Shown here in pieces: positions 21,547-25,427 of a DNA stretch of 36,836 bases. The notes beneath the pieces are model-generated. The model did not search any database, had not been told where the DNA came from, and saw only the letters and a program-made list of their open reading frames with translations. Position 1 is the stretch's first letter. Every line of letters starts with the position of its first letter. The translations under genes were made by a program, and so were the position numbers. The DNA is taken from NCBI GenBank assembly GCA_005787785.1, contig SXZT01000132.1:1-36836 (forward strand), in the 5' to 3' direction. This stretch comes from Actinomycetota bacterium (GTDB lineage: Bacteria > Actinomycetota > Acidimicrobiia > Acidimicrobiales > Ilumatobacteraceae).

Positions 21547-21759
21547 TCACGCAGAAGCGGAGCGGTCCCGACGGTCCCAACACGCGTGATGCCAGTGGCG
21601 ACGCAGATCCGGCGCGTCGGCCGGAACCGTGACGCAATGCCCCGTTCCCGTCGGAATCTCGCGGTTGCAGCCCGGACAGAGGTAGGGCTTCGTTGCTTCG
21701 TAGGGCTGCACGCGACGTACCTCGACTGGCCCGTAGAGACCGCTCCAGATGTTGCTCAT
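21547..21759 (-). CDS. Small CxxC...HWHxxCW zinc-binding protein
   Basis: This 70-residue protein has CPGC at 28-31 and RRHWHHACW at 53-61, a pattern I recognise from small conserved actinobacterial proteins of unknown function. Cys28, Cys31, a His at 57/58 and Cys60 could form a treble-clef-like zinc site. No membrane segment is present. The ATG at 21757-21759 follows the stop of the 36-residue membrane protein gene by 3 nt on the same strand, so the two form a bicistronic unit. It is convergent with yraN, 4 nt apart. Confidence 0.8.
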   Translation of the reverse strand: MSNIWSGLYGPVEVRRVQPYEATKPYLCPGCNREIPTGTGHCVTVPADAPDLRRHWHHACWDRRDRSASA

Positions 21760-21762
21760 CGT

Positions 21763-21873
21763 TCACCCAAGAAAAGCCCAGGCAACGAGGGCCAGGGCGA
21801 CGATCAGCGCGGCCGCGACGAAGACGATGTCCGTACGGCGCTTGACCCGCTTCCGCGTCGCATCGAATCCCAC
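21763..21873 (-). CDS. 36-residue single-pass membrane protein
   Basis: This short gene encodes a 36-residue protein: a basic N-terminus with TRKRVKRRTD, then one hydrophobic segment from about residue 16 to 35 and no C-terminal tail, predicted N-in. GTG start at 21873 with a CATAAT hexamer exactly 6 nt upstream; the stop is 3 nt before the next start. The positive-inside pattern, promoter spacing and tight linkage to the zinc-binding gene support a real gene. The function is unknown. Confidence 0.7.
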   Translation of the reverse strand: MGFDATRKRVKRRTDIVFVAAALIVALALVAWAFLG

Positions 21874-21879
21874 GGCGTC

Positions 21880-21885
21880 ATTATG
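21880..21885 (-). promoter_or_regulatory. -10 hexamer of the small membrane protein operon
   Basis: On the minus strand CATAAT (five of six to TATAAT) lies 6 nt before the GTG at 21873. It directly abuts the plus-strand -10 of the enoyl-CoA hydratase gene. Confidence 0.6.
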
Positions 21886-21891
21886 TATCGT
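21886..21891 (+). promoter_or_regulatory. -10 hexamer of the enoyl-CoA hydratase gene
   Basis: TATCGT lies 6 nt before the ATG at 21898, with no Shine-Dalgarno. It abuts the divergent minus-strand -10. Confidence 0.55.
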
Positions 21892-21897
21892 CGGGTC

Positions 21898-22689
21898 ATG
21901 ACAACCAACGCGTTCGAGACAATCATCGTCGAGCGGGCCGACGGCGTCGTCACCGTCACCCTCAACCGCCCGACAAAGAAGAATGCGGCGAACAACACGA
22001 TGTGGAGCGAACTACTTGCGACGTTCCGCGAGGTTGCCGCGTCACCCGATGATCGTTGTGTCGTGCTCACCGGCGCGGGTGGCGACTTCTGTTCCGGTGC
22101 CGACCTGTGGGCCGGCGACGACGCGTCGGCGAGGCAGCATCAGTTGGCGCGCATGCGCAACGTCGGCGACGTCGCCATGGCCCTCGCGCGTTTGCCCCAA
22201 CCCGTCATTGCGAAGGTTCGCGGGGTTGCCGTCGGCGCCGGTATGAACATGGCACTCGGTTGCGACCTAGTGGTTGCCTCAGAGAATGCCCGATTCTCGG
22301 AGATCTTTGCCAAGCGCGGGCTCAGCATCGACTTCGGCGGATCGTGGTTGTTGCCGCGTCGTGTTGGTCTGCACCGCGCAAAAGAACTTGCCCTCTTCGC
22401 CGACATCATCAACGCGGCCGAGGCCGAGCGCATCGGGCTGGTGAATCGGGTCGTGCCCGACGTGGAACTCGATGCCTTCGTCGATGGTTGGTCGAAGAAA
22501 CTCGCCGCCATGCCACCGATTGCGATCGCCCAGACCAAGCGCATGTTGAACAACGCGATGAACGTCACGCTCGAAGAGGCACTCGACGACGAAGGCGCGG
22601 CGCAGACGGTCAACTTCGGCACGAAGGACACGGCCGAGGCGATCGCGGCCTTCACCGAGAAGCGCGACCCAGTCTTCCGCGGCCGGTAG
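21898..22689 (+). CDS. Enoyl-CoA hydratase/isomerase family protein (PaaG-like)
   Basis: This 263-residue crotonase-fold protein acts on CoA thioesters. The oxyanion-hole strands are GDFCSGADL near residue 64 and VAVGAGMNMALGCDLV near residue 110. The position of the first catalytic Glu of classical hydratases appears to be Asn (GAGMNMAL). The segment KRGLSIDFGGSWLLPRRVG resembles PaaG-type isomerases, which use an Asp there. An isomerase or non-classical hydratase activity is therefore more likely than plain 2-enoyl-CoA hydration. Real start is ATG 21898; reading further upstream would oppose the minus-strand genes. Confidence 0.88.
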   Translation: MTTNAFETIIVERADGVVTVTLNRPTKKNAANNTMWSELLATFREVAASPDDRCVVLTGAGGDFCSGADLWAGDDASARQHQLARMRNVGDVAMALARLPQPVIAKVRGVAVGAGMNMALGCDLVVASENARFSEIFAKRGLSIDFGGSWLLPRRVGLHRAKELALFADIINAAEAERIGLVNRVVPDVELDAFVDGWSKKLAAMPPIAIAQTKRMLNNAMNVTLEEALDDEGAAQTVNFGTKDTAEAIAAFTEKRDPVFRGR

Positions 22690-23440: not shown

Positions 23441-24127
23441 TCAGGCACTGAAAGCGGCAGTGCCCAGGTCGCGCAGTTCCGACACCGCGGCAGCAAGTCC
23501 GCCCGGGTGCTTGAAGAGGGCACTTCCTGCGACGAGTACATTTGCCCCCGCCGCAGATGCGCCGGAAACCGTCGCAGCGGAGATGCCGCCGTCAACCTCG
23601 ACGTTGATCGCGTCGCCCAGTCCGGCTGCCGTGATCATGTTGCGCACTTCACGAACCTTGCACTCCATGGTGCCGATGTAATTCTGGCCGCCGAAGCCGG
23701 GATTCACGGTCATGACGAGTACGAGGTCGATGAGATCGAGCACATTTTCGACTGCCGATGCGGGGGTTGCCGGATTCAACGCGACGGCAGCGGTGGCGCC
23801 GAGCGAGCGGATGTTGTCGAGCGTGCGGTGGAGGTGCGTGCAGGCCTCGGCATGAACGATGAGGCGCGAGCAGCCTGCCTTCACGTACTCGGCTGCCATC
23901 ACGTCCGGGGTGAGCACCATGAGGTGTGCCTCGAAGGGGAGATCACAATGCCTGCGAGCAGCGGCGATGACGTCGGGACCAAACGTGAGATTCGGAACGA
24001 ACTGACCGTCCATGACGTCCCACTGAATGAGGTCGACACCGGCCGTCTGCAGATCGCGCACGGCCTTGCCGAGTTCGGCGAAGTCTGCGGGCAAAACCGA
24101 CGGTGCGATCTGGATCGGAAGCGTCAC
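23441..24127 (-). CDS. rpe: Ribulose-phosphate 3-epimerase
   Basis: Rpe interconverts ribulose 5-phosphate and xylulose 5-phosphate in the pentose phosphate pathway. The 228-residue TIM-barrel protein shows IQIAPSVLPADFAELG at the N-terminus, WDVMDGQFVPNLTFGP near residue 35, FEAHLMV, MTVNPGFGGQNY near residue 140 and VDGGISAATV near residue 175, matching the metal-binding and phosphate-binding motifs. GTG at 24127 is chosen because of the family N-terminus and the TAGAGT hexamer 7 nt upstream. It is convergent with the surface-protein gene and divergent from the RNA methyltransferase gene. Confidence 0.96.
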   Translation of the reverse strand: MTLPIQIAPSVLPADFAELGKAVRDLQTAGVDLIQWDVMDGQFVPNLTFGPDVIAAARRHCDLPFEAHLMVLTPDVMAAEYVKAGCSRLIVHAEACTHLHRTLDNIRSLGATAAVALNPATPASAVENVLDLIDLVLVMTVNPGFGGQNYIGTMECKVREVRNMITAAGLGDAINVEVDGGISAATVSGASAAGANVLVAGSALFKHPGGLAAAVSELRDLGTAAFSA

Positions 24128-24134
24128 GCGGTCC

Positions 24135-24140
24135 ACTCTA
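24135..24140 (-). promoter_or_regulatory. -10 hexamer, probable leaderless promoter of rpe
   Basis: On the minus strand TAGAGT lies 7 nt before the rpe GTG. The same hexamer and spacing recur at the quinone reductase operon (26575-26580). Confidence 0.5.
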
Positions 24141-24158
24141 CCGATGCACCTCCAAACG

Positions 24159-24164
24159 TAAGGT
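24159..24164 (+). promoter_or_regulatory. -10 hexamer, probable leaderless promoter of RNA methyltransferase gene
   Basis: TAAGGT lies 6 nt before the ATG at 24171, divergent from the rpe promoter within a 43-bp gap. Confidence 0.5.
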
Positions 24165-24170
24165 TGATGC

Positions 24171-25427
24171 ATGGAACTCGAGGCCGGCGCCCTCGTCGCC
24201 GGCGGCGATGCAATCGGTCGGATGCCGAGCGGCAAGGTGATCTTCGTCGACGGGGCGCTACCGGGCGAGCGGGTCGAGGTGGTCCTCACCGACACCCGCA
24301 AGGACTACGCGCGCGCAACGGTGACGCGCGTGATCGAGGCGTCGTCCGGGAGGGTTGCGCCGCCCTGTCCGCACGTCGTGCAGGGCTGTGGTGGGTGCAG
24401 ATGGCAACACCTGTCGGCCGACGCGCAATACGAAGCCAAGGTCCGCATCGCCGTCGAATCGCTGTCCCGTATCGCGCGCATTCCCGTCTCCGACGATTTT
24501 GTGGCGCGCGCCGCCAGCGGTGTGCAAGTCCCCCCATCGGGGTACCGCACCACCATTCGACTCGCCTTCGACTCCGAAGGCCGACCTGGTTTCCGCGAAC
24601 GCTCGAGCAACAAAGTCGTCGCGATCGAAGAGTGTCTCGTCGCACACCCGTTGCTGCAGTCGGCGATCGCGTCACTCTCGGTGCGCCGTGGAAGCAACGT
24701 CGAAGTGACTGTGCGCTGCAGCACGACCACCGGCGTCGTTGGTGCGGTCGTGCACGGAGATGAAACCGAGGTGCGCGGGCTCGAACGCGTCGATGTCGTG
24801 GGTGACGGGGCACGTCTCGTCGAGACGGTTCACGGAACAGACCTCGTCGTGTCGATGGGGTCTTTCTTTCAGTCGGGCCAGCTCGCAGCCGAGGTGCTGG
24901 TCGACACGGTCCGGCGCATCGCGGGCCCCGAGGCGCTGAGTGGTGCTTTCGGGCAGGTTGTCGATGCCTACGGGGGAGTGGGGCTGTTCTCGGCGACGAT
25001 CGTGCCCGCGCACGTTGCCGTCACTCTCGTCGAGTCGAATCCCTTCGCCGTGGCAGATGCGCGGCACAACCTCGTCAACCATCGCGCAACCGTCGTCGAA
25101 TCGCTCTTCGAAGATTGGCAACCGCAGCCCGCCGGTCTCGTCCTCGTCGACCCCGCCCGCACGGGCCTCGGATCTCCGGGCGTGTCGACGCTCGTCGCCA
25201 CCCGTGCACCCGTGATCGTGCTCGTCAGTTGCGATGCCGCTTCCGGCGCGCGCGATGCCCGGCTGCTCGCCGAGGCGGGTTACGAACTCGACGACCTCGT
25301 GGTTCTCGATCTTTTTCCCCACACCCACCACCTCGAGATGGTGATGCGTTTCCGTCAATCGAGGGTGGCCGACGAGAGCCGGTCGGTCACAAGATTCGTC
25401 GGAGGAGTCGTTCCACCCGCTGCATGA
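24171..25427 (+). CDS. RNA m5U methyltransferase, TrmA/RlmD family
   Basis: This 418-residue SAM-dependent enzyme methylates C5 of uridine in rRNA or tRNA. An N-terminal TRAM-like OB domain covers about residues 1-60. A 4Fe-4S cluster motif is formed by Cys66, Cys73 and Cys76, with Cys155 as the likely fourth ligand. The SAM domain contains VDAYGGVGLFSATI, then VLVDPARTGLG. The catalytic Cys is in LVSCDAASGARD, and the general-base Glu is in the FPHTHHLEMVMRF end motif. Whether it modifies tRNA U54 or rRNA cannot be told from sequence alone. Its 3' end overlaps the opposing quinone reductase gene by 41 bp. Confidence 0.92.
   Translation: MELEAGALVAGGDAIGRMPSGKVIFVDGALPGERVEVVLTDTRKDYARATVTRVIEASSGRVAPPCPHVVQGCGGCRWQHLSADAQYEAKVRIAVESLSRIARIPVSDDFVARAASGVQVPPSGYRTTIRLAFDSEGRPGFRERSSNKVVAIEECLVAHPLLQSAIASLSVRRGSNVEVTVRCSTTTGVVGAVVHGDETEVRGLERVDVVGDGARLVETVHGTDLVVSMGSFFQSGQLAAEVLVDTVRRIAGPEALSGAFGQVVDAYGGVGLFSATIVPAHVAVTLVESNPFAVADARHNLVNHRATVVESLFEDWQPQPAGLVLVDPARTGLGSPGVSTLVATRAPVIVLVSCDAASGARDARLLAEAGYELDDLVVLDLFPHTHHLEMVMRFRQSRVADESRSVTRFVGGVVPPAA

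Follow-up and report, generated by a model that had tools for sequence, protein, structure and literature searches.

The 24-bp gap between two divergent genes in the window (the whole 36,836-nt stretch of DNA analysed here, from a member of the Ilumatobacteraceae) is very probably a doubly leaderless bidirectional promoter, or a slightly separated descendant of one, at which RNA polymerase could be engaged in either orientation. Under this reading the gap would be the entire intergenic region, made up of two back-to-back housekeeping-type -10 elements and nothing else; one leaderless mRNA would run from the GTG at 21873 through a small transmembrane (TM) protein gene and its 70-aa neighbour, and the other from the ATG at 21898 through an enoyl-CoA hydratase gene. 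Comparison across related genomes indicates that the shared promoter is real and unusually well conserved, and that its general type is already known.

Layout of the intergenic gap and its two predicted -10 hexamers

The gap (21874-21897; GGCGTC ATTATG TATCGT CGGGTC) lies between the GTG of the small gene, which appears as CAC at 21871-21873, and the hydratase ATG, which begins at the first base after it. The minus-strand hexamer CATAAT, read from 21885 to 21880, abuts the plus-strand hexamer TATCGT with 0 bp shared. Reading of the sequence thus confirmed the first-pass annotation as to the 24-bp length, the abutting hexamers and their 6-nt distances from the two start codons (Table 1). The full gap pattern, with up to three mismatches allowed, matched the window once and 100 shuffles not at all.

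Table 1. Features of the divergent locus and its intergenic gap (window coordinates)
Feature	Position	Strand	Remarks
70-aa CxxC...HWHxxCW (zinc-finger-like) gene	21547..21759	-	follows the small TM gene directly
Small single-TM protein gene, 36 aa	21763..21873	-	GTG start 21873-21871; sequence MGFDATRKR...WAFLG
Possible plus -35, TCGAAT	21863..21868	+	inside small gene; 17-bp spacer; weak, 3/6; read from sequence
6-nt spacer, minus start	21874..21879		length fixed, sequence free; 5/6 columns variable in genus
Predicted minus -10 hexamer, CATAAT	21880..21885	-	6 nt before GTG; invariant in 11/11 genus members
GTAT	21885..21888		four bases not present in ATTATCGT of relatives, by gap comparison; exact placement ambiguous
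Predicted plus -10 hexamer, TATCGT (TANNNT)	21886..21891	+	6 nt before ATG 21898; invariant in 11/11 genus members
6-nt spacer, plus start	21892..21897		sequence free; 6/6 columns variable in genus; length mostly 6-7 nt across relatives
Enoyl-CoA hydratase/isomerase (crotonase family), 263 aa	21898..22689	+	PF00378, E 4e-58
Possible minus -35, TTGGTT	21903..21908	-	inside hydratase gene; 17-bp spacer; weak, 3/6; read from sequence

Both hexamers carry A at -11 and T at -7. The plus hexamer has the form expected of a leaderless promoter, TANNNT placed 6-7 nt before the start codon; the minus hexamer has the right position and the A-11/T-7 pair and departs from TANNNT at a single base, the missing T at -12. 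It could nevertheless act like a leaderless -10 element, perhaps a weak one or one read by another sigma factor. A consensus sigma-70 scan found no -10/-35 pair in the gap, its single match beginning at the ATG within the hydratase gene, and support for the promoter is therefore drawn from comparison rather than from consensus matching. The suggestion that any -35 element must fall within the opposing coding sequence is likewise supported; as no -35 enrichment was detected in 304 leaderless promoters of a sister genome or upstream of small genes that lack the hydratase partner (both sets described below), no -35 element is claimed.

Both members of the divergent pair are genuine genes. Hydratase orthologues in the order are 52-94% identical. 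A profile search recovered the small TM family (MGF[ND]PxRK...W; invariant M1, G2, R7, D15 and W32) from 87 of the 148 genomes searched in the order, as a rule in single copy, and in many relatives its start codon is ATG. The 70-aa gene is the probable second cistron, and a relative of its product is encoded near the locus in 51 of the 62 loci compared below; the protein gave no match above cut-off in Pfam or NCBIfam. The two minus-strand genes (21547-21873) make up a two-gene unit conserved in the order for which no model in either collection passes the cut-off.

Conservation of the arrangement among orthologous gaps

Hydratase loci from 41 genomes, together with genome contigs, yielded 62 distinct loci with the small gene in divergent orientation. 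Of these, 11 come from 11 species of the window's genus; in every one the gap measures 24 bp, and CATAAT and TATCGT are placed 6 nt before the respective starts. Across these loci the alignment is invariant at all 12 hexamer positions and at just 1 of the 12 spacer positions (Fisher P = 5 × 10−6). In 50 paired loci outside the genus, which span other families as well as other genera, the hexamers overlap instead (A[GT]TATCGT), with about 4 bp shared, and the offset from the minus start to the plus hexamer is 8-9. The cores of this overlap class are AGTATCGT (n = 30), ATTATCGT (n = 11), AGTATTGT (n = 6) and singletons (n = 3). Their minus hexamers are GATACT, GATAAT or AATACT, so that NATAMT stands 6-7 nt from the start in all 50, and their plus hexamers fit TATNNT (and hence TANNNT) in 49, the remaining one being TATCGC. 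Plus spacings of 6 or 7 nt predominate, with a maximum of 9 nt, and the gap is 20-24 bp with a mode of 21, two outliers (L104 and L024) excepted from both ranges.

Altogether, both hexamers are kept in 61 of the 62 paired loci, the minus spacing being 6-7 nt in 61 and the plus spacing 6-9 nt in 59. The poorest fits are on the plus side, at L104 (32 nt), L024 (12 nt, with TATCGC) and L046 (9 nt), and the arrangement is absent from L105, whose hydratase is only 45% identical. Conservation of the hexamers among orthologues, on which the first-pass annotation had staked its proposal, therefore held, as did the distance of each from its start codon nearly everywhere, and both are kept far beyond chance. 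Retention of the 24-bp spacing held within the genus, where the hexamers abut, and not outside it, where gaps of mostly 20-24 bp contain overlapping hexamers; those same gaps show that 24 bp is not itself the minimum size.

An in-frame ATG at 21883-21885, inside the promoter core, offers a second possible hydratase start upstream of 21898. The codon is created by a 4-bp insertion seen only in the window's genus and is absent from other genera, which makes ATG 21898 the likely start. An account in which the hydratase is translated from ATG 21883, or in which leadered transcripts begin inside the opposing genes, would reduce the hexamers to incidental sequence. Such an account gains something from the reading frame, which a gene caller could well adopt; yet other genera start at the equivalent of 21898, the spacers vary freely around invariant hexamers, and the spacers show no conserved ribosome-binding site, so that we consider it highly improbable. 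Gene callers may wrongly annotate ATG 21883 as the hydratase start.

A probable 4-bp insertion separating the two hexamers

The core in the window equals ATTATCGT plus four bases (ATTAT-GTAT-CGT), a difference that turns overlapping hexamers into abutting ones. Because the overlapping form is present in all other genera and families, we infer that the abutting form is derived, by insertion of 4 bp. The ancestor would have been a bidirectional promoter with overlapping -10 elements (ANTATCGT; minus N-ATA-M-T and plus TATCGT, about 4 bp in common), and in the window's genus the insertion between the hexamers would have made them abut with both start-codon distances kept. The genomes with 24-bp gaps are placed in one genus. 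A single origin of this class was not recovered from the hydratase tree, which splits it into two clades, though one clade was not rejected (p-AU 0.156).

Leaderless background and independence of the minus hexamer

Genome-wide statistics were obtained from a sister genome (G011; hydratase 94% identical), which comprises 1.37 Mb and 1317 genes called with a simple codon-usage gene caller, start codons included. In this genome TANNNT occurs before candidate starts 161 times at 6 nt and 143 times at 7 nt versus about 10 elsewhere; a genome from another genus of the family (G023) gave 71 and 60 versus about 4. As read from these sequences, the peak at 6-7 nt is the mark of leaderless transcription known from Mycobacterium tuberculosis (PMC3898074). 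The proposal that both promoters are leaderless is thus supported by leaderless promoters as the apparent genome-wide norm and by the conserved 6-nt spacings. At the leaderless position of G011, TATANT is found once at 6 nt and never at 7 nt, and TAGNNT accounts for half of the cases; the full -10 consensus seems to be avoided there.

The departure of the minus hexamer from TANNNT, the dominant leaderless motif, for want of T at -12 is what would favour a simpler explanation, namely that the gap holds a promoter for the hydratase alone, that sequence conservation around TATCGT yields the minus hexamer as a by-product, and that the small gene is transcribed from elsewhere. We compared a further 62 small-gene loci with no hydratase detected opposite, three of which (L218, L270 and L275) may hide a divergent open reading frame. 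NATANT stands 5-8 nt before the small-gene start in 41 of these 62, mostly as GATACT or CATACT, and a further 5 carry TANNNT; the minus hexamer is thus mostly kept where no hydratase was detected opposite and is no by-product of the plus promoter. Three other observations run against the explanation. One concerns the A that stands two positions ahead of the plus hexamer and is required solely as the T at -7 of the minus hexamer; it is present in 50 of 50 overlap-class loci versus 80 of 304 leaderless promoters of G011 (26%), a contrast that stands even though the 50 rows are related, so that 0.26^50 is no true probability. The minus spacing stayed at 6 nt across the 4-bp insertion. Finally, SATAMT, which like the minus hexamer has no T at -12, is rare in G011 and itself peaks at 6-7 nt (4 and 3 occurrences versus about 0.3). 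A promoter for the hydratase alone is accordingly very unlikely. Where the hydratase gene occurs without the small gene, the hexamer near its start is of an ordinary kind, for example TAGGGT (L076 and L077). The -10 element of the small genes at L191-L275 reads NATACT, a form conserved order-wide, its first base being C, G or A; no TATACT was seen among them.

The core might instead be an operator through which a regulator controls both genes, a notion to which its very strong conservation and its position between divergent genes, a common one for operators, lend some appeal. The core is not palindromic, however, each half lies at the genome-wide leaderless distance from its own start, and the minus half persists without the plus gene; of the explanations weighed here we give this one the least credence.

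Relation to known bidirectional promoters and expected output

The closest known systems are the bidirectional promoters with shared -10 elements described by Warman, Grainger and colleagues (PMC12825309, PMC10268837), which likewise have -10 elements on opposite strands, steric exclusion and a -35 of little weight. In Escherichia coli their start sites are commonly 18, 10 or 23 bp apart, and polymerases cannot bind simultaneously (PMC12825309). The A at -11 and T at -7 typical of each direction of such promoters are present in both hexamers of the window and invariant in its genus. The overlap-class relatives match these promoters, with about 4 bp shared in all 50 and a predicted start separation of 21-25 bp, mostly 21-22 bp. 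In the window, by contrast, the hexamers share 0 bp, the predicted start separation is 25 bp, leaderless transcripts are predicted in both directions, the promoter would constitute the entire intergenic region and conservation is order-wide. We would call the window's copy a derived variant that probably works like a bidirectional promoter and falls outside the strict shared -10 definition.

Leaderless promoters of M. tuberculosis start transcription at the start codon, with TANNNT lying 7-12 bp before the start site and no conserved -35 (Cortes et al. 2013, PMC3898074); 22-26% of genes in that organism are leaderless, closely juxtaposed divergent promoters are called common, and the divergent pair prpD/Rv1129c, both of whose mRNAs are leaderless, is induced together (PMC3898074). 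The present pair differs in that its promoters touch or overlap and in that the minus one is NATAMT, not TANNNT. The lysG/lysE locus of M. tuberculosis (PMC5648196) is similar in having divergent genes, overlapping -10/-35 motifs and one leaderless promoter (P2-lysE); it differs in its 108-bp intergenic region and in an inverted repeat bound by a LysR-type regulator, and is neither minimal nor doubly leaderless at one site. In the open-access literature on leaderless bidirectional promoters, the exact layout of the window was not found.

By analogy with these systems, two polymerases are plausibly excluded by steric hindrance from joint binding at the gap; the enzyme would engage either orientation and never both at once. 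The prediction of mutually exclusive or anticorrelated expression is a different matter and finds no support: basal activity of the E. coli bidirectional promoters is too low for competition, which is seen once one direction is activated (PMC12825309), and prpD and Rv1129c are co-induced. At ordinary low activity there would most likely be little effect on output, with competition arising only when one direction is strongly activated; anticorrelation is, on this analogy, a hypothesis about the activated state and makes no prediction for ordinary growth. The bolder idea that obligatory competition for one polymerase site couples the membrane-protein/zinc-finger operon to the hydratase across the order, with a geometry altered by the 4-bp insertion and both leaderless start distances unchanged, strikes us as rather doubtful.

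With two leaderless -10 elements and their 6-nt spacers, the gap appears to be near the smallest self-sufficient divergent intergenic region. Order-wide conservation with spacers free in sequence and fixed in length provides sequence evidence for selection maintaining shared-promoter layouts, and it indicates a route by which streamlined actinobacterial genomes arrive at divergent gaps of about 20 bp. Overlaps of 4 bp and 2 bp and the abutting form together offer a natural geometry series for tests of -10 overlap and of polymerase competition or coupling.

Other divergent pairs of the same design

Among the 198 divergent pairs of G011, a gap no longer than 60 bp with a leaderless hexamer for each direction was seen in 24 start combinations; the same count at five control spacings was 0. 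Six of these combinations have gaps of 22-24 bp. Five of the six share the TA of both TANNNT hexamers (N6-7 ANNNTANNNT N6-7), with a start separation of 23 or 24, and in the sixth (24 bp) the hexamers overlap slightly differently. The 22-bp TA-sharing pairs, with a predicted start separation of 23, also match the shared -10 promoters.

At a glycerate-kinase/amidase pair, ACCCTACGCT with free 6-nt spacers is kept in all genus members from which the locus was recovered. At a menaquinone-type pair, one of the six just described (G011 C9:25989-26013; L159 and L316), with MenE-like (minus) and MenA-like (plus) products identified by sequence, the 23-bp gap has a shared 10-bp core, AGCGTAGGGT, between variable spacers; this core is kept in three close species and is absent from other genus members, in which the sequence before menA is unrelated.

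An excess of doubly leaderless pairs in G011 was rejected, with 32 observed versus 32.3 expected of the 198 divergent pairs. As the count equals the independent expectation, the design follows from the high rate of leaderless promoters and not from a specially selected pairing; the window's locus stands out for how deeply it is conserved. The window contains a second divergent pair (24127-24171) with a gap of 43 bp and both leaderless hexamers, TAGAGT for a minus-strand 228-aa open reading frame, probably a ribulose-phosphate 3-epimerase, and TAAGGT for a plus-strand TRAM-domain methyltransferase; a similar 43-bp pair is present in G011 (contig C22).
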